Assembly (NCBI RefSeq): GCF_032854445.1
Contig: NC_088302.1
Span: 21,773,788-21,837,787 of the forward strand
Direction: 5' to 3'
Length of the DNA stretch: 64,000 nucleotides
Source of the DNA: Liolophura sinensis
Taxonomy: Eukaryota; Mollusca; Polyplacophora; Chitonida; Chitonidae
Part shown: in pieces, positions 2,064-59,600 of the stretch
How the letters are laid out: every line of letters begins with the position of its first letter
Position numbering within the stretch: position 1 is the stretch's first letter
Made by a program: the position numbers and the translations under genes
Notes under the pieces: model-generated
What the model was told of the DNA's origin: nothing
The model's database searches: none
What the model saw: the letters and a program-made list of their open reading frames with translations, nothing else

Positions 2064-5000
2064 TCGACAGTTGGCAGAGAACTCTCCATATTTTGAAGCC
2101 TTCCGCAAACGGGACATAGAAGTGCTGTTTTTGTATGAGCCTTATGATGAACTTGTGCTGATGAACTTGGCACAGTTTGACAGGAAAACGCTAAAATCTG
2201 TGGAGAACGAAATCCAGGAGGATACAGATGACAGCGACAAAACAGATGATAAAGGTATGTCTACATGTACACCACCCTGAAGGCTAATGGTTATCATTGT
2301 TTGTGGTGCACTACCAGCTCACTCCTAGCTAACCTAAAGCAGACTTTTAGCATTCCATTAGATTTTCACTAGCATAGATCTGCTGAGTGTAGATTTGCAT
2401 TCAAATATAATGACTAGCCACAAATAACCTTCGACATCTACTCCTCTACCATGCCACAGGCACATTACAAGCAGACTAGTGGCAGGCGGGAGGCACACCT
2501 CTGGGATGCCTCTAGAGAACATGTAACTTGTTACCACGGCATTGTAACAAGATGGTGGGTGGACATGACTGGTTGACTCACAGCTTCTAGTAAATACTTG
2601 TGCATTGAAGTTTTGCTGATGGGTATGACATAATTTACAGTCATCTGCAGTGAAGAAAGTCAAAATTTTGGCGACCTGAGGCTTTATATGCAGAATACTA
2701 AGATGAGGTGCTTTTTTGAAGTACATTTCCTTACAAGACATCTAATGTATGCTGTCTGGGCCCTCTGTGACCTATGGGGGTAGCCCGCCAGCGTGTTACA
2801 ATGACCCAGGAGCCTCCCACCAATGTGGTTAATCTGAGTCCAGCTCATGCTGGCTCCCTCTCTGCACATAGTCGTGAGTTTCCCCCGAGCTCTGCCCGAT
2901 TTCCTCCCATCATAACGCTGACTGTCATCGCCAATAACCAATCATAAATCACCAATCAAATAAATAAAAATAAATATTCTATATGATAAATGACTTATGT
3001 ATCTGATGGTATGGGGACATGTCTCAAAAATGAATAAATGCGGGCTTTTTTGTCTGCGTAAGCATAATAAAAAGGTAGAGTCAATCAGTCATGCTTCTCT
3101 ATGCAATAATTATCTGATGTTGATAAAATTTTGTGTACAGGTTCATGCTGTGGGAACCTCAGATCTAGTTCTGAAACCAGTCAGATCCAGTATATTTACC
3201 CATTTCCTTAGTTTCCATTGGTTGTGGGTTTCTATGCAATAACTGCTCTAAATCTTGTCTGAATTTGATCAAATTCTGTGTGTAGATTCCTCCGATCTAG
3301 TCCTGAAACCAGTCAGATCCAGTATATTTAACCCTTTCCCTGGTTTCCATTGGTTGTTGGTTTCTGTGCAATAACTGCTCTAAATATTGTCTGAATTTGA
3401 TCAAATTCTGTTTGCAGATTCCTAGGATCTAGTCCTGAAACCAGTCAGATCCAGTATATTTAACCCTTTCCCTGGTTTCCATTGGTTGTTGGTTTCTGTG
3501 CAATAACTGCTCTAAATATTGTCTGAATTTGATCAAATTCTGTGTACAGATTCCTAGGATCTAGTCCTGAAACCAGTCAGATCCAGTATATTTAACCCTT
3601 TCTCTGGTTTCCATTGGTTGTTGGTTTCTGTGCAATAACTGCTCTAAATATTGTCTGAATTTGATCAAATTCTGTGTGCAGATTCCTAGGATCTAGTCCT
3701 GAAACCAGTCAGATCCAGTATATTTAACCCTTTCCCTGGTTTCCATTGGTTGTTGATTTCTGTGCAATAACTGCTCTAAATCTTGTCTGAATTTGATCAA
3801 ATTCTGTGTACAGATTCCTAGGATCTAGTCCTGATCCAGTATATTTAACTGGTTTCCATTGGTTGTTGCTTTCTGTGCAATAACTGCTCTAAATATTGTC
3901 TGAATTTGATCAAATTCTGTGTGCAGATTCCTAGGATCTAGTCCTGAAACCAGTCAGATCCAGTATATTTAACCCTTTCCCTGGTTTCTGTGCAATAACT
4001 GCTCTAAATATTGTCTGAATTTGATCAAATTTTGTGTGTAGATTTAGTTTTTGACTCATCAGATCCAGTTTAAAAACCAGCTTGATCCGTTTTACGTATT
4101 TAATGTGGAATTACATTTGCTGAATTAGCCTGTTATATATACAGGTATACATTGGCTTGAGCTTTGGGCTTGTTAAGAAATAACATGTTCGGTGACTGTA
4201 TCAAAAGCACAGAATTATTTCTGTAACGTTTTCGTGCCTCAATTTCAGACTCCTCATCCCTGGAGAAGGATCAGCTGGATTCACTGATGAGCTGGCTTCA
4301 GGTTGTCCTCACCAATAAGGTCAACAAGGTCAAGGTCAGTAATCTGCATACCTGCTGTGATCGGTGTTTATCTAAAACTTATTTAAAACGTGATCGGGGG
4401 CTTCTCTTGATTGACTCTCTGTGACTATTAGACCCTTCACCAGTGAGACTGCACGTTTGAATTCATCTTGTGGTATTTTGGCTGAGGCTGTCAGTCGTGA
4501 TGTTTGTTAGGTACTCGTTAACTGTTGGTTGTTTACTCCAAACACTCTTTCCTTCACTCCTTAACCTAACCACCATTTCATGAGTGAAAAATTCTTAAGT
4601 AAGACATTAGTAAACATCAATCAGTCAATCAACGCCTTAGGTGACCTAATGGTTAATAGTGTCTGCTCCAATTCGGAAGACCTGGGATCAAAACCGAGTT
4701 GGGTCACACCAAAGACTTCAAAGATGGTCCATGTAAGTGCTTCATCTGGTGCTCAGCACTTAGAGGCATGGTGTCTGTATAATGTGACTCCCTTGGATGT
4801 CTTTGTCATGACACCTCAGAGGAGGCAGCACTTTGGCAGCATGAACTCTCCGTGCTGTAAGAAAACACAGTATATGTACACACACCTAATGACTCCCTGT
4901 TGTCATATGACAGAAACATTGTTCAGTACGACCTTTGAAACTCAAGCATCTCCAAGCCATCGACCCTTTGTTTTCTCCAGTTATAAATAGAAATTGTTAG

Positions 5001-8000
5001 GTAACACTTTCTGAAGCATCAGTCTACTAAAAGAATAAATTATTGTCCTTAGTGTTCACATGAGTAATGTATCCTAATTAGTGATACACTTTTTCGTGTC
5101 CATCTTACATGAAGGATACCTTTCCGGCTTATGATAATTTTGCTCCTGGATTTTGTTCTTCCGCTTGCATGAAGGACTTTTTATCAGCTATTGATAAATT
5201 GTGTTTCTGTTATTTACACAGGTAACTCGTAGACTGGACACCCATCCATGTGTGGTTACCGTTGTGGAAATGGGGTCAGCACGTCATTTCCTCAAGACGA
5301 CAATGGCTGACAAGTCACAGGAGGAGCGTTACAGACTGCTACAACCCACCCTGGAAATCAACCCCAGGTATGTACATGTGTGATGATGCTTGTAATGCTG
5401 ACCCTCAGCCACAAGGTGGCTGTTTAGGGAGACGTGCATGGTTGACAGCCTCTAGGAATGTTTAGGTTTGTTTAGCATTGAAGGGTTGCTGTTTGGAGAG
5501 ATAATCGTTTTCCAGTGTGTTACTGCTAGGGCTTCTGAAAAACATAGTAATAACTTTTTTAAATCCAGGAAAAACTATAGATTTACTGCCCAAGCCAACC
5601 TGCCGTCGGCTGTTAGATATGGCTCAGCGGGAGACCACCATAGATGGCCAACAGAGTCTAGGTGGGCTAAATAACCTGGCGTTTCATGCCGAAACGATGT
5701 CATTTTCGAGACAGATTCTGGCTACCTATACCTATTCATAAATTCATACGTATATGTGATGACAACTACTTTGTTTACTATCCTTTCTCTGTCTGCTTCA
5801 CAATAACTATCATTCTATTCCCTAAAGGATTCTAAATTCATACCTGTATGGGATGACAACTACCTTTTTTCGTTTACTATCCTTTCTCTGTCTGCTTCAC
5901 AATAACTATCATTCTATTCCTTAAAGGATTCTAAATTCATACCTGTATGGGATGACAACTACCTTTTTTATTTACTATCCTTTCTCTGTCTGCTTCACAA
6001 TAGCTATCATTCTATTCCCTAAAGGATTCTAAATTCATACCTGTATGGGATGACAACTACCTTTTTTTGTTTACTATCCTTTCTCTGTCTGCTTCACAAT
6101 AACTATCATCCTATTCCCCAAAGGATTCTAAATTCATACGTACATGTGATGACAACTACTTTTTTTCGTTTACTATCCTTTTTCTCTGTCTGCTTCACAA
6201 TAACTATCATCCTATTCCCCAAAAGATTCTAAATTCATACGTATATGTGATGACAGCTACTTTTTATACTTACTATTCTTTCTCTCTGTTTGCTTCACAA
6301 TAACTATCATCCTGTTCCCCAAAGGATTCTAAATTCATACGTATATGTGATGACAACTACTTTTTTCGTTTACTATCCTTTCTCTGTTTGCTTCACAATA
6401 ACTATCATTCTGTTCCCCAAAGGATTCTAAATTCATACGTATATGTGATGACAACTACTTTCTTCGTTTACTATTCTTTCTCTCTGTCTGCTTCACAATA
6501 ACTATCATCCTGTTCCCCAAAGGATTCTAAATTCATACGTATATGTGATGACAACTACTTTTTTCGTTTACTATTCTTTCTCTCTGTTTGCTTCACAATA
6601 ACTATCATCCTGTTCCCCAAAGGATTCTAAATTCATACGTATATGTGATGACAACTACTTTTTTCGTTTACTATTCTTTCTCTCTGTTTGCTTCACAATA
6701 ACTATCATCCTGTTCCCCAAAGGATTCTAAATTCATACGTATATGTGATGACAACTACTTTTTTCGTTTACTATTCTTTCTCTCTGTTTGCTTCACAATA
6801 ACTATCATCCTGTTCCCCAAAGGATTCTAAATTCATACGTATATGTGATGACAACTACTTTTTTCGTTTACTATCCTTTCTCTGTCTGCTTCACAATAAC
6901 TATCATTCTATTCCCCAAAGGATTCTAAATTCATACGCATATGTGATGACAACTACTTTTTTCGTTTACTATTCTTTCTCTCTGTTTGCTTCACAATAAC
7001 TATCATTCTGTTCCCCAAAGGATTCTAAATTCATACGTATATGTGATGACAACTACTTTGTTTACTATCCTTTCTCTGTCTGCTTCACAATAACTATCAT
7101 TCTGTTCCCCAAAGGATTCTAAATTCATACATATATGTGATGACAACTACCTTTTTTGTTTACTATCCATTCTCTGTGTCTGTTTCACAATAACTATCAT
7201 TCTATTCCCCAAAGGATTCTAAATTCATACCTATATGTGATGACAACTACTTTTTTTCATTCCCTACTTCTCTCTGTCTGCTTCACAATAATTATCATTT
7301 TATGCCCCAAAGGATTCTAAATTCATACCTGTATGCAATGACAACTACCCTACATCTTATTGACAGCATTCTGGATAGCCCATGCCTATGTCAAATAACT
7401 GTACATTCCTCGATAAGGAAGTTCAAGTGGCATAGCGCCTGGGACCTTGTTTTCCAGGAATGTACAGTTACGAGGCCTTTCTCTCACTTGAACGTTTGCA
7501 TTAGTGTTACATAATAAAACATTTCTGTATTTAGCTGTGCGAAGGAGTGGGGATAAGAAATGTGCAGATAGCACAGATAGCAAGTACCATAGATACTTTA
7601 TGTATGGCGACATGTCCAAAATATCTTGCGTAGACAATTCAGACCTTCCAGACGAATTATGGAAAGTACGGCTGCTGTACTTTCCTGACGGAGAAAGCAC
7701 GGTTTTTCTGAATAGAGTGACGTCACAACAAGCGTTGAAGTTCAGTTAAGAGCATTTTATGGCCACCGTGTACAGGTGCCGTCGTGGAAATTCAGTTGTA
7801 TTCCTCTCGTAGCTTTCAGCTGTTAACAGACAAGAACATGCAGACACGGCTGTTTTTGGGGGGTCATTTGCATTGTATTTTCGACATGGGTACAAGATCC
7901 TTCCGTCTTGTGCTGTAAGTCCATGCTTTCCAGAGGGCCAAACCATCTGGAAACGTGAAAAAACTAACTCCAGGGTTCATACAACCGTATACAGAACTGC

Positions 8001-26760: not shown

Positions 26761-29700
26761 TAAGGTCACCTATATGCAGTAAATAAAAATAAAATTCTGT
26801 ACACAACAGTTCATTGTGGATGAAGAATGGACATACCCACAATAATAGCGTGATATAAGCTATATAGATCCAACAAATGTATACAGGGTCTGACTATGCT
26901 TGTAGCTGTATCACTCGCTCATTCTGCTAAAGCATTGCACAGTTTGGCCAGTTTTGAACTAGTTCTTCCTCAAAATGAATCCCGCTTCTGCTAGTTCATC
27001 CTGTCATCCTGTACGGCTTCCTCTCTGGCCGTACGTGGGAAGGTCTGTCACCAACCTGCGGATGGTCGTGGGTTTCTGCCGGGCTCTGCCCAGTTTCCTC
27101 CCACCATAATGCTGGCTGCTGTCGTATAAGTGAAATATTCTTGAGTACGGCGTAAAACACCAATCAAATAAATAAATTTCGTCCTGTACATGGCAAAGTA
27201 TAGTGACTTAATCTGGCTGCAAGTTTCTGGCCGTACATGGGAATGTCTGCCATCAACCTGCGGATGGTCATGGGCTTCCCCCTGGGCTTGGCCCGGTTTT
27301 CTCCCACCATAATGCTTGCTGCCACTTGCTGTATAAGTGAAATATTCTTGAGTACGGTATGAAACACCAGTCAAGTAAATAAAAGAAATGTTTCAGTACT
27401 GGCCTTATCTTTTCAGTTTTCAAATCTGTTGGGAACAGTGTACAGGAAGGGAAATGTGCTGTTCACACCAGACGGCAATACAGTCATCAGTCCAGTGGGA
27501 AACCGGGTTACCTTGTTTGACCTAAAAAAGTTAGTGTATTTTTTTATTGGTTATTGGTAACAGAACACCCATGTCTAGTTCACATTAGTTCAAGATTGCT
27601 ATGTTACTGTGGCATCTTTTGGTGCTCAGTAAAAGTGGATAGCCTATGTTTGTCACTAGAAATACATGCACATAGCAGCATTTTGACTGCATTGTGACAA
27701 TATTTTTACATAGAAATGTTGTCCTCAGTTTTAAAGCTTTAATGGGACAGGAGTCACAGTGCTTATGCTAAAGTGGCAAAATCCTGTGATATAAAATTAT
27801 GAATTGCCCTTTTCAAAAAAATAATGTAGTAGGGTGGCATGTATAAAACATAAACTAACTCTAGGCTGGAGGAAATTTCCCATTAGTGGTAGGAACCCAA
27901 AGATCACTTGTTCAAATCCCCAACTAGTGTATAAAGTCTGTCATACTATAACCCTGTTACATTAATAAATACAGTGTATATAAATGATGTGATCATGGAA
28001 CCCACCATCTAGGTATAAATGTAGTTACTGTAAAATAGAGACATTGGGTCTTGCGCATGCTGTGATCAAATAGGATCACTTGAACAAAGGTGTTATGAGA
28101 AGTTGTGACATTGTGAACAAAGATGCTATGAGAAATTGTGATGTGAAAAAAGATATCATGGAAAATTGTGAACTTGTGAAGAAAGATGTCATGGAAAATT
28201 GTGGCCTTGTGAACAAAGGTGTTATGAGAAGTTTTGACACTGAACAATGATATGAGAAATTGTGATATTGTGAACAAAGATGCTATGAGAAATTGTGACA
28301 TTGTGGAGAAAGATGTCATGGAAAATTGTGACATTGTGAACAAAGGTGTTATGAGAAATTCTGACATTGTGAACAATGATATGAGTAATTATGACATTGT
28401 GAACAAAGATGCTATGAGAAATTGTGACATTGTGAAGAAAGATGTCATGGAAAATTGTGACATTGTGAAGAAAGATGTCATGGAAAATTGTGACATTGTG
28501 AACAAAGGTGTTATGAGAAATTGTGACATTGTGAACATTGTTGTTATGAGAAATTGTGACATTGTTAACAAAGATGTAAAAGCTTGATTTGATTTAAATG
28601 TAATTGATTACTTGACTAGTGCATGCCCAGCTTGAACCCGGCTTACTGGGCTATGTCAAACCAAGCAGGCTCACCGTGACAAAAATATATTAAAACATTT
28701 CTGAGAATACATGTAATATCTGATGACAAGGTGTGACTCAGATTTGGTGCTTTGACTCCTGAGGTGCAATATTGCACGAAGCAAGGCACTGCCAAATGAC
28801 ATAAAACATGAATATGTATGAGCTGTTGTTTGTTTCAGTAACCGATCCAAGACGTTGCCAGTAACAAGTAACCTGAACATCACATGTATAGCTTTGTCTC
28901 CAGACGGCGTGACACTGATCCTTGTTAATGAAGGTAAGGGTGGCAGGTGTTCATGTGACAAGTACATGTAGATGTCGACTGTTCATGCGATAGGTGAACA
29001 GTTTTATATGTATGTATGTGATCTTGCAACATATAATGTTTCATGTGTTCAAGAGTACAGGTAAAATTTCATACAGAACACATCATGGCTCTTAGTCACC
29101 CTGTTGTCCCAGTTTTTTTTTTCTTGCTTTTTTAATTTAAATGCTCAAGATTTTATCTGAATACAGTAAAGGATACGTAGACCTATATAGATGCACATGT
29201 AACTGTGTAGGGTTAAAATGCATGCAGAAATTTAAGAAAAAACAAAGAATGGTAAGTTTGCAATTTCAGACAAAACACATGATGGTAAGTTTGCAATTTC
29301 AGACAAAACAAAGGATGATAAGTTTACAATTTCAGACAAAACAAAGGATGGTAAGTTTACAATTTCAGACAAAACAAAGAATAGTAGGTTTGCAATTTCA
29401 GACAAAACACATGATGGTAAGTTTGCAATTTCAGACAAAACAAAAGATGATAAGTTTACAATTTCAGACAAAACAAAGGATGGTAAGTTTACAATTTCAG
29501 ACAAAACAAAGGATAGTAAGTTTGCAATTTCAGACAAAACAAAGGATGGTAAGTTTGCAATTTCAGACAAAACAAGAATAGTAGGTTTGCAATTTCAGAC
29601 AAAACACATGATGGTAAGTTTGCAATTTCAGACAAAACAAAAGATGATAAGTTTACAATTTCAGACAAAACACATGATGGTAAGTTTACAATTTCAGACA

Positions 29701-32700
29701 AAACAAAGGATTGTAAGTTTGCAATTTCAGACAAAACAAAGGATGGTAAGTTTGCAATTTCAGGCAGAACAAAGGATGATCAGTTTACAAATTCAAACAA
29801 AACAAAAAATGGTAAGTTTGCAATTTCAGACAAAACAAAGGATTGTAAGTTTGCAATTTCAGACAGAACAAAGGGTGGTAGTTTAGCAGAGAATGGTTAA
29901 GCCTGAATTACATAATAAACACAGCTTCATCTATATAAGCCTTTGTATTCTTTACTGTATGTAATTTCCTGACGATGGCACAGACATGGTGGCCAAGTTA
30001 TAGATTGATATTATGACTTCATTACTTGAAGCATTATATAATATAAAAATATAATATTTTTTGATATTATTACACAGTGTAAATTAAAAAAATCTTAATA
30101 TTCGCCAATATATAAATACTTTACACTTATCAGTGAACACATTTTTTGTCTAATTGTTTTGTTGCAGCTGGAGAAGCATTACTCTGCAGTCTTCTGAGTA
30201 AGACAGTATTACATCACTATCACTTCCACAAGCCTGTCCGCTGTATCAAGTTCAGTCCTGATGGAAGGTATGGACTGTTCTTACCCACACAAATGTCTTT
30301 TTCTTTGTAGAAATTGTTCAAGTCACTCAAGGATTGGGTTCAAACCCGGCTTTAGACAGGGAATTTGTACAATCCCTTTTTATCACTACATCTGGGGCCT
30401 GTGTTTTAATAAGTGGTCGAAAATGCTTGTGTGATCATTTGTCATGTTTGCGCGGTATTCAACATTCATTGAAGACCACTTGTCTTCTGTCAATATTTGT
30501 ACATCACATGTGAGAAAGCTTGTCATTGACTTACCAAAAGGTGGCTGTTTACGCCGAGCACTCTGGTTTTAACTACCCATAAAATTTATTGCCACGGTAA
30601 ATATACAAAAATTCTTGAGTAAGGAGTTGAGCAACAAGCAGTTAAGTCAATAAACTCTTTGTAAATGATAGTATATGATTTGTACAGTGTACAGTGCATG
30701 TAAATATATACTGTAATTGCTCACTTGTGTAAAGCATCATTATCGCTGAGGCAAATTGCTCCCCCCGCACCCACCCCTTCATTGAGGTCCCAGACTCAAA
30801 TCTAGCCGTCAGTGATTAAAAACTCTAAGAGTCCAGGGTAAAATACCAGTTAATAAGAAAGCAAGTAAATCATTCATGATCTTTGAAAGTAATAATTAAT
30901 AACCCATCCTGGTCAAGAAAAATTGTTCTTTAATGTTATTGTATAAAACGACAATCACACGAGTAATGGATTTTGTGTTATTCAGAAAATTTGCTGTGGC
31001 GAAGGAGAGCAATGTGGAAGTTTATCACGCTCCAGGGAAGACCAAAGACTTTAACCCATTTGTTTTATACCGGACGTTTTTTGGGGCCTATGATGAGATT
31101 ATGTGCTTGGACTGGACAAGTGACTCAAAGTAAGTCAGCTTTTTATATCCATCTACTGTGGCACACTGGAGACTGAAATGGTACAAGTTTGTATGCAATA
31201 AATACTTGTATCACAAAAGAAAAAACATGGCCTCTTTCCTTAAAACTGACTAAAATCGTATGTAAAGTGAAACATTTTTGATTATCATCGTATTTAACAG
31301 CAATCAAAGAATTATACTCTCCTGAGTATTTTCCTGCAGTACTTTACAGGTTCTGATATGTCCTGTTTCATAAACCTCAGTTAGAATTTATGGTTTTGGA
31401 TATTCAGTTGTGGACCCAAATATTAAGTTACCGGTGACAAGTAAATATGTTGTGCATGGAATCATGTGAAGAGCTTAGAAAAAGCTTCGAGGAATTTGCT
31501 GACTAATTGTGTGGTTTTATTTTCAGAGCCTTCTGTGCAGGCAGTACGGACATGAGCACTCGTGTGTATGGGGCCCAGCGATTCACTAATCTCATTGTGT
31601 ACTCTTTAGGGGGTCACAGTGACCCCATTGTTGGGGCCTTCTTTGAAGAGCAATCTTTAGATGTATCCTTTCAATAGACAGACCACCCTGTCATTCAAGT
31701 ATGTTTTGAAGTATTGCTTCTGGGAATTTTCTTGAAACAGAAACTAAATATCAGTGTATATTTTAATTTGTGTCTGGTACTGCATAAAAAAAAGAGGAAA
31801 AAGAACTTGGTTAAAGTATAAAACATTGAAGTCTTGTCAAATGCCCAGCCAAAGAACCTTGATGTCATTTAATGCGGAACTTGTAAAATTCCATATAGGA
31901 ACTGTTTTGTTCTTTCCTTTATTATGTCACAATTATCGGTTCATCTGTGCTCATAAAACTCTAATGTAGTACACAAGCACTCAAGCTTCACAGATTGAAA
32001 TGATGCGTACTGCTGCCATTTGGACCTTTTGCGTAGCTTGTCCTCGGGTCTCCCACTGACTTCAACATTTTAACATTGTAAATGTTGCGCTACAATCCAT
32101 TTTTGCTGCAACAATGACTCAAGGTCCTGCTTCATAGTAGCGTCACCTGAAGGGATTTAAAATTATTCCACCTTCCCATTGCCTTTTTGACCAATTTATA
32201 GAAATATAGTTTTGTGGTGGATGAGAAACAGGTCAGGTTGTCTCCCTTGACTGATCCTCAGCTGTACTCTGTCAGTGAGCGTGGGTTCGTGTGTGTATGG
32301 GAGTGTGACACAAGCCCTGATGACCTTGTGCCCTACACTCCCCCCAACCAATCAGAGGAAGCCAAGGAAGAGGAGAGTTCGGCAGTTAAAGGAAAGAATA
32401 GTGGTAAAGATGGCGTATTATATAATGATGGTAATACATGTAAGATTGGAATTGAACACTTGGTATATGAAATGGCAACATCTCCTTAGTTTGCTTTTAT
32501 GAATCTTTTGTGCTCAAGAAAACATTATTATCAGTTTTGACCCTTGTCTTGCTTAGTGATTTATAGTTAGGATGGCCAATTTGGGTATTTTGTAAAATCC
32601 AAGTTTTTTTTTTTTTTTTTTTTTTGACCTGAGTTAAATCCAACCTACCCTGGGTCATTTGAAGGATTTTGTTTCCAAGTTAAAGCTCCTAGGGTGTTTC

Positions 32701-35700
32701 TAGCTTTCTGTAGCCTCTAACCTGACTCCTCTTGTGTATGAAATTGAAATGTTTTTTTCAGCAGGATATGAAATCCCCAAAGAAGTACTTAAACCCACGC
32801 ATTGAAAGTTAATTTTTTTTATTAAAACCTGTGTCCAGCCAGGGGTTTGAGAAATTCACTTGTGTTTTGTATACTTTTCCAGATGTTGATTCGGTGAAAG
32901 ACGAGGGTAAAAGTGGAATAGTTTACAAGAAGGTGGACAAGTAAGTTTTTAAATGTTTCTGAGATATTTCCTAAGAACAATATTTTAGGACAAAAATGTA
33001 GAGTTATATTGTCCCAGTTGAAATGTGGCAGAATAAAATTAAGTGATAAAGTGATGATTTTAGAGTGACAGTGTTGTCACATTTAAGTCAGCTTGTCCAT
33101 TTGTTTGTATGTTTTCAGGCACTCCTACCGTTCTGCCAGAGGAGAAGGAGCGGTCTTCGCCACAGTGACCAGTACAGACTACCACAAACATACAAAAATC
33201 CTGGTCACAGGCTTCCAGGATGGTGCTTTCTTCTTACATGAGATGCCAGACTTCAACTTGATTCACTCATTAAGGTGCATATTCGGAAACAATAGTTCAA
33301 TTTTGTACAACCATACATTGACAGTTAATACAGAAATTGTAATGAGAATATTTCACGTTTAAATTTGAATATTGTTTTCCTGAGACGACAACCCAATTAA
33401 GACTTTTGTGTTATCAGAATTGTCTGTTTCCTCTTATTTACATTGACAACATTCTTCATTAAATGTCAATAATTTGATCATGGCACCCATGTTCTGTGTG
33501 TGAGCATTTTATAAGATTCAAGATCAACAGGGTCATGGGTTCAAATCCAGATATTGCAGCTTCTGGTGTGGCTTAAATTTTACTGTGTTACAGTATTTCA
33601 GACCAGATGATTGCCTCTGCCATGTTTAACAAAACGGGGGATTGGCTTGCGCTGGTGTGTGCTGGACTTGGTCAACTGCTTGTGTGGGAATGGCAGAGCG
33701 AATCCTACATACTCAAGCAACAAGGCCACTTTAACACCATGAGTTGTCTCTCTTATTCCCCAGACGGCCAGTTTATCGCCACAGGAGGGGATGATGGGAA
33801 GGTATGATCACTTCTCTCACCGGGTGGGATTGTGTTCTTTTTCTCACTAGGAATTGTGGGGTTCAGTTTAAAAATGTAAATGCATTGCTGCAGATTTTGA
33901 AGGGACATTTGTGATTTATTTTTGTTATATTTACATGGAACAGGTTGTGAAAGGCTGTATATTCTAGCCAGGTTTTCGAATGTGGGAGTGAAAATAAGCT
34001 GTGGGGGTGATTGTGGGGTGGGGGTGGTGGGGGGTATTTTGTTTGGGTGTTTTAATGTTATTTTGAAACTCTTGTCTAAAATCATAGTTAGTATCTCAAC
34101 AGTTTTGTTTGTGGACAGTCAAGTGTATGCGTCTTAAGTTTTTCCCATCATAAGCTTGATACTGCTGTTTTCAGATTTCGAATCAGAGATTTCTAACACA
34201 GCATAGGCGGTGGCCTAAATAAAATATGAAATTAAATATACTGCGTGGCAGTTTTTAAATTCATATTCATATAGGATTATGAAGCAGTCTTTTTGGCAAC
34301 TGCAGTGTGAGAAGGTCAGACCCAAATGCAGGTTTCAAATTTGTTCAGATGAGAAACAGAAAATGTTACATATTTGGAAATAGAAATAGAGAGTGCTAAC
34401 TAGAAAACCCTGGAATTATTTGTTTAATGAAATACACATCCTTAAACAAAGTGAATGCATGTACACGTAATTAGAATTTTGTTAATAACCAAGTATGCTA
34501 GAATTCGGGTGTTTTCTACTCTTTCAAAATATCAAAATGGATTGAACTTCGGTATATAATTGTCCGAGAGTGCCCAACCAGATGTTGTTTTCAGTAGGAG
34601 TGTGAAATGCACACATCCATGATGGACTTTGCTCTAACCGTCTGTTTAGTGTTAAGCACAAGTAAAGTAAATAAATAAATACATGAACAGATGTACAAAT
34701 TACAATGTAACTGTCTGTTGACCCGACCTGGCCTATTGAATGTTCAGTTGTGGTTACATTTGTCACCGTCTGGTTTGAGAATATGTGTAAGATCTGTCTT
34801 GGAAGGGGTGGGGATTGGGGGTAGGGGGTGTTTGAGGGTGAAAGAAATATAAATATGTGTATGGTGTCATCTTAAGCTCAGCTGTGGTGCTCCTTACTGT
34901 TTATCTTGTTTCTTTTTTACTGATGGCACTGCTTTTGTTGTGATTGTCAAAGTATAACAAACTGTTGATTTTTACAGGTGAAGGTTTGGAACACCAGTTC
35001 AGGTTTCTGCTTTGTGACATTCACAGAACACCTGGCAGGTGTCACAGGTGTGCAATTCAATCAGAATGGACAGGTGGTGGTCTCTGCCTCATTAGATGGC
35101 ACTGTGAGGGCCTTTGATTTAAACAGGTGAGATTATAAACAAAATGAAAAAAGAACAAACATCATACTTTGGTGCAGCTCAACATTTTAACTGAGCAAGT
35201 CAGTTTTTTGATTACACATTACATGGTGAGACCATTGTGTACATGTCTCTACTATAATATGTTCAGATATTATTTTCTTTATATTTCACGGCAATTTACA
35301 ATGATCTTTGACCAATATTTAATCTCTTATTACTATTAAACTTGAGTTAAAAAATGTAAAATAAAATATTACAGAGTAAATTTAGAATCCCGTCAAATAA
35401 TATTTCCATGAAAATCATTATGAAGAAGTCACATGACAATTTTCATCTCGCATTTTGCTTTTTACCTCCTAGCCCAGGCATCCAACCATTCACTGTGCTA
35501 TATATCCTATCTATCTGTATACATACTTGTGTATTATTTTAGATAGGCACTGGGTTATAACAGCTTAAGGAAAGGAATGAAAGGTGGAGTGTTTTCCCCT
35601 TTGAGAAAAAAATGGGAAGTTCCATTCATCTTTATCAATTTGTAAAAGTTAATACTTTTGATGAGCACCATGTATGACTTAAAGAATCGAGCAGAGAAAT

Positions 35701-38700
35701 AAAAGGTGGAGTGCTGTCTCCTTTGAAAAAAAAATTGAAGTGCCGTTTATCTAAATATTAATTTTTAAATCCATCATAAGTTTCGGTTTTTGATGAGCAC
35801 CCTTCATGTATGGCTTAAAGGATCAAGCAAAGGATTAAAAGGTGGAGTGTGGACTTGTCTGCTTTAAACAAAAACAAGAAGTGGCTTTCATCTACTGTCA
35901 ATCTTCAAGCTGTTCTCATGTTTGTAAGGTGTTTCATATTCTGGCATATTTTCAAGGCATTTTTCTGCATTGACAGATAAAATTACACTTTGTATAATGC
36001 CCTGAAACTGGCCAGTCTAACCAATGTAGTTTTGTCTCCAAAATCAAATTAAAAATATGCATAAATTGCACTGAAAGTTGCTCTTTTATAGACGAAAAGT
36101 TTGAGGAGTTAGGATATATTGATTTTTAAATCCATCATCAGTTACTTCTTTCATGAAAACCCTACATGTATGACATTCTCTTCCATTTGGTTTGTAAATG
36201 TATGCTTTCTTTAGGTATTGTAATTTTCACACCTTTTCATCCCCGTGTCCCATACAATTCATCAGTTACCAGTTTCCATGAACACCCAATGACTTTCTCT
36301 CCCAAGTTTATTCTTGAACACATACTTGTTTTCTTCAGATATCGTAATTTCCGCACCTTTTTAATCCCCGTGCCCCTTACAATTTGTCAGTTATCAGTTT
36401 CCATGAACACCCAATGACTTTCTCTCTCAGTTTATTCTTGAACGCATACTTGTTTTCTTCAGATATCATAATTTCTGCACCTTTTCGTCCCATGCCCCAT
36501 ACAATTTATCAGTTATCAATTTCCCTGAACATCCTGTGACTTTCTCTGCCAGTTTATTCTTGAATGCATACTTGTTTTCTTCAGATATCGTAATTTCCGC
36601 ACCTTTTCGTCCCATGCCCCATACAATTTATCAGTTATCAATTTCCCTGAACACCCTGTGACTTTCTCTGCCAGTTTATTCTTGAATGCATACTTGTTTT
36701 CTTCAGATATCGTAATTTCTGCACCTTTTCGTCCCATGCCCCATACAATTTATCAGTTATCAATTTCCCTGAACACCCTGTGACTTTCTCTGCCAGTTTA
36801 TTCTTGAATGCATACTTGTTTTCTTCAGATATCGTAATTTCTGCACCTTTTCGTCCCATGCCCCATACAATTTATCAGTTATCAATTTCCCTGAACACCC
36901 TGTGACTTTCTCTGCCAGTTTATTCTTGAACGCATACTTGTTTTCTTCAGATATCATAATTTCTGCACCTTTTCGTCCCATGCCCCATACAATTTATCAG
37001 TTATCAATTTCCCTGAACACCCTGTGACTTTCTCTGCCAGTTTATTCTTGAACGCATACTTGTTTTCTTCAGATATCGTAATTTCCGCACATTCACGTCC
37101 CCACGCCCTGTACAGTTCTCCTGCCTGACTCTGGACCACAGTGGTGAACTGGTCTGTGCTGGGGGTCAGGATGAGTTTGAAATCTTTGTCTGGTCTATGA
37201 AAATGGGAAGACTGCTGGAGGTGAGAAGACTCATGTATTAAGGTCATGAAAAGCCTGAAAATTAGATTTTTTTTTGTAATTGGGCCTGGAAAAGCCTTTA
37301 GACTGGGACTTCAGAACCAACCTGAGCTACAGTGTATATTTATTTATTTATTTGATTGGTGTTTTACGCCGTACTCAAGAATATTTCACTTATATGACGG
37401 TGGCCAGCATTATGGTGGGAGGAAACCAGGCAGTGCCCAGGGGAAACCCACGACCTCCACAGGTTGCTGTCAGACCTCCCCACGAGAGGAAGCCAGCATG
37501 AGCTGGACTTGAACTCACTGGGATCACATTGATGAAAGACTCCTGGGTCATTATGCTGTGCTAGCGTACTAACCAACTCAGCCACGGAGCCCCCTACTAC
37601 AGTGTATAGTATAGCTTTCTTCCAGGGGAATTTGTATTCCAACTTTAAAACTGCCTAATACAGTGGAGTGTATATGTGAAAAGGTGTATATCTGAAAGCT
37701 CAGTCAATTAAGATTACTTTTCATGGCTTTAAGATTGTATAGGTGCAGTATATTTATTCCAAGTAGCATGGAAAATATGGATTTTATACCAGGAAAAGCC
37801 TTGACAAAGCCTGGAATTTCTTCAGCTCTTCGTGTTGTGTTGAAGATGGGATGTATTGGTTTCAGTGGCACTATAGTACGTTTTGTGTGGTCATATTGGT
37901 TTCAGTGGCACTGTAGTACGTTTTGTATGGTCACGAATACAAGTTACAGTGACCTGGTTGTCGCAGTACAAACCGTTTAAGAACGCGATTTAATTTTAAT
38001 CATTCTAGACATTTCCGAGATTTTTCGAAAAAGTTAATCATTTCCTGGTTTGATGCCCAGTTTGAGAATGTACTGTAATTCTTCAGCCTTTTGAACCACT
38101 TTTTTTTCAGTGGAATTTGTGCTTACAATTATTATGAAAATGACATTAAACTTAATATGTTTGTGTCATTAAAGATGCAAGATTCGTATGTTATATTTTC
38201 ATAAATAGTTGAAGAATTAGGGTAGTGGAAAGTTCATGTCAGGCTGGTGTCAGACTGGGTGGAGTGTATTGGGGCTTTGACATGGTATTCCAGCAAGACT
38301 GCGCTACAAATATATCGACACTTGGGCTGGCATTGTACAGGGTAACTTTGTCATGATAATGCTGAAATAATGTCAAATTTCGAAGAGGATCCGAACAAAG
38401 AAACAAAGATTTATTTGTTTGTAAGATTGGTGTTTTACGCCATATTGGAGAATATTTCTTCTATGCCAGCATTATGGTGGGAGGAGGACAAACGAAGCAC
38501 CAAACACTGTGGACTGTGTTCATGAGTTCATATTCATGAGTACGGAGTATAACACCAATCAAAAAAATCAAAAAGAGTAAATGAAGTGATCAGCATGTTG
38601 TAATGTCTGTCTACAGGTATTGGCCGGCCATGAAGGCCCCAATCAGTAGTCTGGCCTTCAGTTCCAGCCACACCCTGTTGGCCAGTGGCTCCTGGGACAA

Positions 38701-40550
38701 CACCATCAAACTATGGGACATCTTTGAAAGCAAGGGAGCGAAAGAGACAATAACTCTTTCATCTGATGGTAACACATATTTTACTGTAATGTGTATAAAA
38801 GCTGTCAATCGGGTAATGTGACTAAATGGTGGCTAAAGGTGGGAGGGTTATTGGTGGTTATATGTATATGATACCAAGAGTTACTTCTTGTCAATCAAAA
38901 TATGGCTTGCTGTCACATCAGGGCCTTAGATCTATGAATGGTAAAGAGTATGAGTGCTGGTAAATAAAATTTGCATATGAACTTTTATGTTGGAAAACTA
39001 TACCTTGAAAACTTAATAGGCATATTTTGGAACCTTTTCTCAATTATTTCTCCATTTTCATCAAAATCAGTGTTGATAAGTTTTTATTAAGGTATGATTA
39101 GTATGTGGGATATGGTATAAAGACTTAAAAAACACTTGTCTTTTGAGTTTATTATTGTTTTTTTTTTTTCCACCATAGAACATGTAGCAATCAAGTCCAG
39201 CTCATGCTGACTTCCTCTCCATCCGTTCGCGGTAAGGTTTGCTAGCAACCTCTGGGTGGTCATGGGTTTCCCTGAGCCCGGTTTCCTCCCACCATAATTC
39301 TGGCTGCCATTGTATAAGTGAAATACTCTTGAGTATGGCATAAAATATCAATTGATCAATTAAATATATAGTATATGTCCCACAGTGAGTCCATGCGGCT
39401 GTATATGCTGTAAATGTAGGAAACTGATTTGGTTCACACTTTGACAAATTCTTTTCCTGCCCTTGTTATTAATACTGAAAACCAAAAGCGAGTTTAGTTT
39501 CCCTAACCAGGTGCTTGCCCTGTGTCTCATATTAAGAGTTATTTATGAACATTTATTTACAGTGCTAGCCCTTGTCTTTCGGCCGATGGTAATGAGATTG
39601 CCGTGGCAACACTGGATGCTCAGATCAGCTTCTGGAATCCCCAGACTGGGGAACAGACAGGATCCATAGAGGGCAGACATGACCTGGGTTACTCCAGGAA
39701 AGACACAGACAAAATCACTGCCAAGAAATCTGCTTTTGGAAAGTATGAGAGCAGTCATTTTGAAAATTGACCACTTCAGATACATAAGTAAATTAACAAT
39801 AAATAATGAAGTTTTTTTCTTAATTTATCACATTTCAGAATTTTCCTTACTGTTCCAAGTTCAGATAGTGCACAATTTGAATATCTGATGTAATGGCTGG
39901 TGTAAAAATTGATGTTAAATGCAGGGAGTTTTATTGTTAACTGCAGATGTCTAATGATGCATATTGTGTTAAGAAAGAGATATGAGGTCTTCATTAAATT
40001 CAGAAAGAAAAATGTTGCCTTTCATATTTCGTGGGACTAGCATTTGGCCCTTGAAGCTATAAGTTTAGTGGATGTGTTAAATTGACATGTTAATTATGGC
40101 CTGCCAATGCAGGGAGTCTTTATGTTTTAACCAAGAAAATGTACTTACCACCTTCATCAAGAGAAATGCAAACACTGACCTGTTGGATTGTATGTGTACA
40201 TTTGACCAAAGTACATTGTAGTTTTGTTGCATTTTTTGATCATGAATTTGAATTTTCATGTAGTTTATTCATCCTACAGGGCCTTCAACACAATCTGTTA
40301 CTCAGCAGATGGTAGCTGTCTCCTGGCTGCTGGGAAATCTAAGAATGTGTGTATTTATTCTGTGGCTGACCAGTTGCTGATGAAGAAGTTCGAGGTTTCC
40401 TGTAACATGTCCTATGATGGCATGCAGGTAAACATTCATTGACACTTGCTCGTTAAAGCACTACTGTGCTTGTCCTAATTTTTGGGACAGATATCAGCAG
40501 TGCAGGAACCAAAAAAGTACATGATTTCTCTCCCATTTGTGAAAGGAAAA

Positions 40551-56600: not shown

Positions 56601-59600
56601 TTATACGGAGCGACTTACATTGCTTGAATGCACCCTATTCTTAGAGAACTTTCCCATCGGTGTACGGAGGGCTTTGAATGGAGGCAGTGAACCGGGACCA
56701 TGGCCTGTTGGTTTCTCGTGGAAGATGAACCAAAATCCGGCTTCCTGTAAAAGACAATTACGCTTAGTGTTTAAGGAAAATAAAGGATAAATACGAAGTA
56801 AGCATCAGTAGAAAACTATTAAAAACTGCATCTCGTTTACCCTCGGTAATTTCCGTCGCCAGCTCGTGAATGCTGTAGCATGTATGTCGCATGGCTTCGT
56901 TAGCTGCTTTGCAAACAGTGTAGGCAAGCTAAAGACAAGATGTGGCGAGTTGTGCTGGGCCAAAATCTATTGGTTTCAGGTATGTGCTCCCTTTTGCCGA
57001 GTGAAGATCTGTACAGACTCTGATCACCTGTCTACTTGTAACTTCACACCGTTCATACCAATCTTTACGCCCAGGTGACTTCAGGTGTGTCCGTCTAAAG
57101 GGTTTTAATAATGCCAATATAGGCCTACGCCACCATGTAGCTCATTTTTCAAATACAGTTCTGGTATGACTATGTGTTGTTACGTACGTCTTGGTTAGTT
57201 TGTTATCCTGGACATTTTTTAAGCAGTACTTCTGACAAGAAAAGTGGAAGTATTTTCGGGCGAAGTTTTTAATGGTCTTTATACTGATTATTATTTATCC
57301 TTTTAACAAGCAACCAGTTGGCGAAAATGTAGTAAATGTTAAGCCTGATATATCAAGAGTAGTCTCACTTTATCTACTAGAGATCGTAGGCAATCGACTA
57401 TCTATCGGCTAATCAAATAGTTTACAATGCAGTGTGCACGAAGATTAACAAATGAACCAAACAACGCTGTTTTTTCAGCATCGTATCAGTCATACAATGG
57501 CAGTCAGACGCCGTTTAATGTTTTTCAGCTTACCAGTAGAAGTTTCACCTCAGACTGCAACTTTCATAAAATACTGCGTGAAGTTAACATGCAGCCCTAA
57601 CTGGAATAGACAAAAAGTTGTCGCTGTGTTTACGCGGTATGGGAGCGAGATGCATGCAGCAAACTAACAGTCATTCAAAAGCCACAATTTTCCCTCCTTA
57701 TATGGCTTTTCCGGAAAACTCGTCTTCTGTGCGCAGAGTTATATGACGTAGACATGGTGTTGTCCACTCACCTCACTGCCTCCAGCGGCATTCTCAATGA
57801 AGTTGTTATTGGGATGTGCTATCCAGAATGTAGAAACTGCCCTGTGTGAGAAATGAGACACGTATTAAAATAGATAATTTATATATCTTGTATTTTACAC
57901 GAAATTTCATCGTAATCCGTCTATAACTATTTTCCGTAAAGTTGCTGGCCGACAAAAACATACATAGACAGACAAATAACTTCCATGGCGAAGAAAATTA
58001 GTACTGTAGTGGGGCATAAAATCCCAAAATAAATAAATAAATAAATAAATAAATAGATGATATATCATAATTACAATGAAGCCCAACATACCGTACCTTT
58101 ATATATTGGATTCTTATGCTAAATTCCATGCCCTGTAAATGCCGTGACAACTTACGTGCACTCATGTGCAGCGGGCATGTATCCGGGCCACACCGCTCCC
58201 AGAATGGCCATGCACATGTGCTTGTTCCGGTCCGTGGGTAACAGGGTGCTGGCCTGTGTGACCAGACCAAGGTTGTGGTGGAACGTATTGTTCTGCTCGT
58301 TACCGTCTTCCAGGAAGAAACAATGACCAAGTGTGTCATACCCGACAACATTGGACACCTGGAACACATTATCGTATATACGGTGTATATATACAATCTA
58401 AACACTTATATGTTAAATTTAAAAGCAAAGACCACGCAAACATGAAGTACATGCCAGATGAAAGACCATTAAGTGTTGTTCGAGAAAATAGTTTGATTTA
58501 TTTTTTAGAATATTTTTCGACCCAGTAAAATGCATATAAAACTTTGGATTCTACTGTGACGTTTTCTGACCATATCGGGACCAGTGCTGTCACTTCAGCT
58601 TTTTACCTCTTGACACATGATATTGCATTCAAGAAATGGACAATGAAACGAACGATTTCAAAATAAAATTATTGCTGTGACGTCTCTGATACCTTCAGGG
58701 TCCAAACTGCTCACCATAGGATCCTATGTTTTAAATGCATTTTAATCGGTTCGAAAAATGTAAATCAATCAAACTGTTTTCCTGAACAGTGCTTAATAGT
58801 CTTTTCTGAGTGGTGCTAGCATAGAATATATCATGCTCATTATAGATCGGCATAGTATTATGTTATGGGCAGTACAATACGCCGTTACATCAATAATCGT
58901 AGCCTATAATTTAATCGTAGCCTATAATTTAATAGTCTGTCATATACGACCTAACACTTTGCAGGATTCATTCTCCCAACATTCAGAAAATAGATCAAAG
59001 TAAGTCTGGTGCACACAGGGAATGTTCCAGAATTCCATAGCCATGTGTATCTTATACCAATAGTTATTGTAGACATTACCATTTATACTCTTGATCAATC
59101 CTAAAATTTTATATTAGTGTGACTGCGCATGCGCACCTACCGTCAGACTGCTGGTTCCGTGAACTGTGACACATCGATTATAGCAGTGATGAATAGACAG
59201 ATCCTTGACGTAAGCGCTGTCGGGGTAGTAAGTTTTGGTGTCGGCCAGATCGCCGACATCGTGGAAGTGGACAGGGTAGCGTCCCAGATTGGCTTGCTGT
59301 CCCATGTGTTTCACTTCGAAAGCCTGTAGATGTACTCTCTCGAATCCCCTTAAAAACTTTGAATAGGACAGACCAAATAAAACATTGTTTGCCTGCTTGC
59401 ATGATTTGAGAGATTCAATCGCAAACCAAAACTGTACTATACCGGTATTCAATACGCTACTCTAAAAAAAAAAAAATAATAATAATAATAATAATAGTCT
59501 GTTAAATTTAGCAGAAATTCTGTATTCTTTTTTCGGCGCAGATTACTCGGTTAAATATAACACACATATTCCATTAATTAACATGAATACTGTATAACAC

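Follow-up and report, generated by a model that had tools for sequence, protein, structure and literature searches.

A junction-spanning tandem array in front of a PWP2 exon of a chiton, and its counterparts at other splice junctions

This study concerns a tandem array in the genome of the chiton Liolophura sinensis, lying directly in front of an exon of the PWP2 gene within a 64,000-nucleotide stretch of contig NC_088302.1 (assembly GCF_032854445.1; C8:21773788-21837787, forward strand). That whole stretch is referred to as the window, and its own numbering is used for all coordinates unless a locus is named. The array is a real, non-random structure of the kind known in amphioxus as a mirage, and the kind recurs in this mollusc. 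Our explanation, to which we give a probability of roughly 0.85, is that it is a junction-spanning minisatellite, one that arose as minisatellites commonly do, from a starting segment that by chance straddled a splice junction, and that has been tolerated since; most likely it is a side effect of repeat expansion in the DNA and does no harm. The genome searched comprises 609,464,459 bases in 632 contigs, and published work is cited (by PMC number) from excerpts of the papers.

Structure of the array at the PWP2 junction

Translations of the window between 26 and 41 kb match human PWP2 in order, on the plus strand, from 27405 to 40436. The exon that follows the array, 37073-37220 (plus strand), corresponds to human PWP2 residues 447-495 (E = 1.9e-21) and ends at the donor GAG/GTGAGA at 37221, while the exon upstream of the array, 34978-35126 (plus strand), corresponds to about residues 397-447 and ends at the donor CAG/GTGAGA at 35127. 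Joined to each other, the two exons read through in frame (...FDLNRYRNFRTF...). The intron between them runs from 35127 to 37072 on the same strand, and its 3' half is the array. An earlier reading of this DNA, made from the sequence alone (the sequence-only reading), had numbered the exon as the twelfth of PWP2; that it is a PWP2 exon is confirmed, but the number, though possible, is not established, given nine PWP2 segments detected upstream and a stretch equivalent to human residues 235-287 that went undetected.

Tandem Repeats Finder (TRF) reports the array at 36206-37101 with a period of 122 and 7.3 copies. The junction is present in eight in-register copies, whose first exon bases stand at 36215, 36339, 36463, 36585, 36707, 36829, 36951 and 37073, the last being the real one, with successive spacings of 124, 124, 122, 122, 122, 122 and 122 nucleotides (nt). 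Each of the seven decoys consists of the 3' end of the intron followed by about 45 nt of the exon. On the plus strand these exon-like segments occupy 36215-36259 (decoy 1, the most diverged, with G rather than A at the first exon position), 36339-36383 (decoy 2), 36463-36507 (decoy 3), 36585-36629 (decoy 4), 36707-36751 (decoy 5), 36829-36873 (decoy 6) and 36951-36995 (decoy 7). All decoys lie on the intron side, and the authentic exon extends beyond the end of the array. A 35-nt junction core (15 nt of intron and 20 nt of exon) occurs eight times at 25 or more of 35 matching positions, and at no point in 300 first-order Markov sequences. In ungapped comparison with the real exon, the exon-derived 45 nt of decoys 1 to 7 match at 31, 27, 30, 32, 31, 31 and 30 positions, whereas the best of 1000 Markov segments matches at 25. 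The sequence-only reading, which saw an exon-seeded tandem array placing seven decoy acceptors before 37073, is thus borne out, and its reservation that the 45-nt segments might not be homologous to the exon falls away.

Divergence is unevenly distributed among the copies. Units 4 to 7 are identical to one another at 118-122 of 122 positions (0-4 differences), units 5 and 6 at all 122; units 2 and 3 are intermediate; and unit 1 shares 60-63% identity with the others. When the intron-derived parts (I1 to I8) and exon-derived parts (E1 to E8) are taken separately, the outer edges of the array prove equally diverged, with Kimura two-parameter (K2P) distances of 0.443 between I1 and I8 and 0.454 between E1 and E8, as against 0.114 (intron) and 0.16 (exon) between units 2 and 5. 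I1 (36130-36214, plus strand), a diverged copy of the intron 3' end and the one that lies farthest from the exon, forms the 5' edge of the array and ends in CTTTAG. I8, the 3' end of the intron at the real site (36996-37072, plus strand), is identical to I7 at 77 of 77 positions, while E8, which belongs to the real exon, shows 22-31% difference from the decoys. E1 stands at K2P 0.19-0.30 from the other decoys, and I1 at 0.42-0.50 from the other intron copies. The earlier description of a gradient, with diverged distal units and nearly identical ones close to the exon, is confirmed, except that next to the exon the near-identity holds for the intron part only. The associated idea that the array grew outward from the junction fares similarly: the distal edge is indeed old and the near-identical units do lie toward the exon, but the edge on the exon side is old too. 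The share of differences between real exon and decoys that falls at third codon positions is uneven (9 of 14 for unit 1, 6 of 10 for unit 2 and 4 of 9 for unit 5), and no weight is placed on it. Inspection of the sequence by eye for microhomology at the founding breakpoint gave nothing firm.

That the array might have been created in assembly deserves almost no credence. The Liolophura japonica assembly, with which this genome is identified, was built from HiFi and Omni-C data (PMC11068029); the purging of haplotypic duplications and a HiFi coverage of just 14x would leave some room for error, but the mean HiFi read of 8,347 bp is longer than the array of about 0.95 kb (PMC11068029), point changes distinguish most of the units, and the spacing is 124 rather than 122 in two places.

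PWP2 carries further arrays. In intron 2, about 20 units of 33 bp occupy 29229-29884 and touch no detected exon; with 13 occurrences of GTAAGT (10 of them GGTAAGT) and 18 of TTTCAG, this is a second array of the gene rich in splice-like motifs. In intron 1, between detected exons, 28081-28577 holds an array based on 33 bp with a higher-order period of 129.

Arrays at other splice junctions of the genome

Junction arrays are a recurrent feature of the sample of exons with which PWP2 was compared. These exons were identified by matches to WD40, of which 150 were listed from 653 candidates and 78 were examined. A first batch of 20 loci held 36 of these, a second batch of 20 held 25, a final batch of 13 held 14, and the window held three. 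The 75 outside the window represent 68 distinct open segments, taken by assumption as 116-136 junctions. A match was flagged when a TRF array of period 15 or more lay within 150 nt of it, and splice ends were read by eye at flagged loci only. Ten of the 78 matches were flagged and all ten were viewed; in five the array crosses a splice junction, and in the other five (the listed exon of L013, and L014, L017, L033 and L034) it does not. Neither do the arrays at L024 and L025, flagged outside the WD40 list, when viewed. Junction arrays are therefore found at five of the 68 segments outside the window, three at acceptors and two at donors, a figure that is a lower bound because an exon extending more than 150 nt past its WD40 match could hide an array. 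By batch, the yield was 2 of 36 matches, 3 of 25 and 0 of 14.

The three acceptor-side arrays have units of 59 bp (L029), 66 bp (L035) and 98 bp (L041, best match WDR3), and the two donor-side arrays units of 144 bp (L018) and 162 bp (L051). A further donor-side array, with 55-bp units, lies at 404-518 of the LST8-like locus L013; since the array itself led to this junction, it is not counted among the five. Together with PWP2, these loci show that both acceptor boundaries (PWP2, L029, L035, L041) and donor boundaries (L018, L051, L013) are affected in this genome. Counted over the copies found at 70% identity or more, the splice dinucleotide is kept in all six copies of L029, all seven of L041, both copies of L018, all four of L051 and all nine of L013, and in four of the nine copies of L035, the real site included. 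In L041, three decoys match the WD40 profile built in this analysis.

Some observations on individual loci may be added. The donor-side array of L018 (4885-5304, period 144) is open in the exon frame across its extra donor copies, so that use of a decoy donor there would add an in-frame stretch rather than a stop. At L014 (4282-4829, minus strand) a 24-bp array of AACCAGGTGTG-like units fills the intron and stops near the acceptor without crossing it. Exons resembling TRAP1 (mitochondrial HSP75) at 2059-2259 and 5216-5374 (plus strand) are followed by introns that hold large arrays, one of 132-bp units at 3162-4044 and one of 100-bp units at 5734-7348, neither of which visibly crosses a junction, and at about 57748-59359 (minus strand) there are exon stretches matching the Pfam CEMIP beta-helix.

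The presence of arrays at several junctions might suggest a satellite, mobile or selfish, with splice sites as its targets, and the sequence-only reading had offered such a satellite, captured at the junction, as one account of the PWP2 array. However, every array seen is built from its own junction, and the PWP2 unit was found nowhere else in the genome: a search with it, which skips very common words, returned seven matches, all inside this array, which argues against a captured satellite, and no dispersed family was found. Nor is any unit shared between the PWP2 array and the six other junction arrays. In the cross-comparison, which gave 117 rows at E of 10 or less between different arrays (14 with PWP2 as query), the best PWP2 match is a 25-nt pyrimidine-AG stretch at E = 0.012. 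We accordingly set the captured satellite aside as extremely improbable.

While the recurrence of junction arrays in this sample is established, a preference of arrays for junctions is only hinted at, and the answer depends on the null model. Arrays of period 20 or more cover 6.75% of a 200-kb sample. When the founding unit is required to span the junction, with the rate taken from 264 kb and four junction arrays left out, 0.85-1.23 junction arrays are expected in 116-136 junctions against the five observed (Poisson P = 0.002-0.009). By coverage, on the other hand, 191 of 3000 random points adjoin a copy of themselves, and 5 of 136 is no excess. Splice junctions could be hot spots for the founding of arrays, for example through transcription-linked breaks, so that the junction and not chance would determine the position. 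The excess over the first null speaks for this; against it are the small sample, a null picked after the first cases were known, the empty last batch (0 of 14 matches), the coverage null that is not exceeded, and possible effects of composition near exons or of detection bias. On balance we consider hot spots a tentative proposal, and rather doubtful. Much the same must be said of its broader form, that the arrays of this chiton arise more often at junctions than within introns, that a few per cent of junctions carry decoys and that junctions promote the founding duplications, which is possible but on present figures somewhat unlikely. If it were true, this genome would offer natural material for studying how splicing chooses among many equal sites and how introns are gained.

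Splicing signals and coding consequences of the decoys

All seven PWP2 decoys and the real site retain the AG (8 of 8). With a simple weight matrix applied to the 79 AGs scanned in 35141-37080, the real acceptor and six of the seven decoys score 5.7 and decoy 1 scores 4.0; three AGs outside the junction copies (35478, 36431 and 35977) score between 4.1 and 5.0. Since decoy 7 shares 77 of 77 intron nucleotides with the real site and six decoys score equally with it, signals close to the AG cannot discriminate the real acceptor from the decoys. On the donor side, the real donor at 37221 is the only one to score 3 or more within 36200-37300. As six decoys share the acceptor signals and have no good donor of their own, the exon is shortest from the real acceptor, at 148 nt to the donor at 37221 against 270 to 1006 nt from the decoys.

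Use of any of the seven decoys would, in silico, bring in a stop codon, the nearest lying 94 nt before the exon end; decoy 7, for example, would add 122 nt and lead to a stop at 37126. The earlier claim that decoys change the frame, 122 not being a multiple of three, is correct as to the unit, but with the two spacings of 124 the two decoys that add 366 and 858 nt keep the frame, and these too reach a stop. Frame change as a designed feature was considered separately and rejected, the units of the other arrays (59, 66, 98, 144, 162 and 55) mixing multiples and non-multiples of three.

A premature stop produced by an alternative splice is what a poison exon would show, and all seven decoys predict one. 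It could accordingly be proposed that the array is a regulated extension of the exon, in which decoys are used conditionally and the stop-containing PWP2 mRNA is degraded, so as to tune the level of a ribosome-biogenesis factor. In addition to the stops, this proposal may draw on the six decoys that score like the real acceptor, and on minisatellites tied to splicing elsewhere (PMC4039745, PMC2915984). Out-of-frame intron sequence readily yields stops, however; arrays like this one are found in further genes, on the donor and on the acceptor side; the sister array L035 keeps the AG in only three of its eight decoys, having lost it in five; and the amphioxus mirages are reported to be without effect on regular splicing (PMC3087553, PMC3902484). 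Because arrays of this kind occur in further WD40 genes and also on the donor side, the ribosomal role of PWP2 is not needed as an explanation. Regulation by poison exon appears improbable, and the splicing-level regulator that the sequence-only reading had raised as its other possibility finds no support.

Proposed origin and known counterparts

The reading we prefer, a tolerated junction-spanning minisatellite, can be set out in three steps. Judging from its edges, the array would have begun when a segment of about 120 nt, comprising roughly 77 nt from the end of the intron and 45 nt from the start of the exon, was tandemly duplicated. Unequal exchange or slippage may then have multiplied the units inside and made them uniform, so that I1 and E8, in the true exon, survive as old, diverged edges. 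Splicing would still take place at 37073, presumably favoured through exon definition from the sole good donor at 37221, while any use of a decoy would bring a stop and probably nonsense-mediated decay. The diverged outer edges together with the near-identical units 4 to 7 indicate an old local duplication that was later amplified, and the intermediate units 2 and 3, with E1 nearer to its fellow decoys than I1 to the remaining intron copies, indicate more than one later round. Since use of a decoy could do no more than extend the exon and disrupt the protein, the array is better regarded as tolerated than as used. The same process has probably made the arrays at six more splice junctions of this genome.

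Several points weigh against this reading. The intermediate units 2 and 3 and the disparity between E1 and I1 call for a longer history than a single duplication followed by a single burst; the steps themselves are suggested by the DNA of one haplotype of one species; and the intact AG of all seven decoys would also be expected under selection. The donor argument is soft because, of five PWP2 exon ends scored with the same donor weights, that of exon 1 has no site above 0 in the scanned range, and real donors can thus score low as well. Finally, the five junction arrays against the 0.85-1.23 expected hint at more than random founding.

The occurrence of junction arrays at 5 of 68 segments in a mollusc suggests that mirages, which in the literature examined bear that name only in amphioxus, are no cephalochordate oddity. 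Among the papers listed in a literature search that leaves most subscription papers outside, none was seen to describe such arrays in a mollusc, which does not prove their absence. The phenomenon bears on intron lengthening, on intron gain and on annotation errors, the last because decoys translate like exon, as the matches of L041 to the WD40 profile illustrate.

A reference on the amphioxus mirages is said to be Canestro et al. 2002. In amphioxus BflGb6, the 3' end of an intron, together with the beginning of the exon after it, is tandemly duplicated in units of 150-160 bp, the number of repeats differs by haplotype (six or three units), and the units evolve in concert with the exclusion of those at the edges, while in BflGb9 it is the 3' boundary of an exon that is duplicated (PMC3087553). 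These globin repeats were named mirages after those of Adh3, and reverse transcription PCR suggests that regular splicing is undisturbed (PMC3087553); a further paper adds PGBD5 and troponin C (TnC) (PMC3902484). The PWP2 array shares with BflGb6 the tandem repetition of intron 3' end and exon 5' part: its units span the junction, the exon forms the edge unit, inner units are homogenised with the boundary units excluded, and both types of boundary are affected across the genome. Amphioxus units range from 10 to 160 bp, and AG or GT is retained in many decoys, as in the chiton arrays. The differences are that the host is a mollusc and not a cephalochordate, that seven decoys are present in PWP2, and that undisturbed splicing and unstable copy number are reports from amphioxus, whereas a single haplotype represents the PWP2 array.

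The minisatellite of the human IFI6 (6-16) gene reportedly supplies several splice donor sites (Turri et al. 1995, cited in PMC2572611 and PMC2915984). Like the PWP2 array it repeats a splice site; in PWP2, however, acceptors and exon sequence are repeated, in 122-nt units, as read from genomic DNA. Turri et al. are cited for intronic variable number tandem repeats (VNTRs) affecting splicing in a paper on a human VNTR (PMC2915984), and in C. elegans intronic minisatellites are tied to multiple splicing decisions (PMC4039745). In duplicated human genes, minisatellite-like internal tandem repeats that lie where exon and intron meet may form novel introns via cryptic splice sites (PMC2812944); as far as the excerpt goes, gene structure changes between paralogs there, whereas PWP2 retains the conserved exon whole and shows no new intron. 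A potato RNA-dependent RNA polymerase (RdRp) gene is reported to have gained an intron by tandem genomic duplication (PMC4974935). On the evidence of that excerpt, tandem duplication multiplied splice signals as it did in PWP2, with the difference that a new intron arose in potato and an existing one was lengthened in the chiton.
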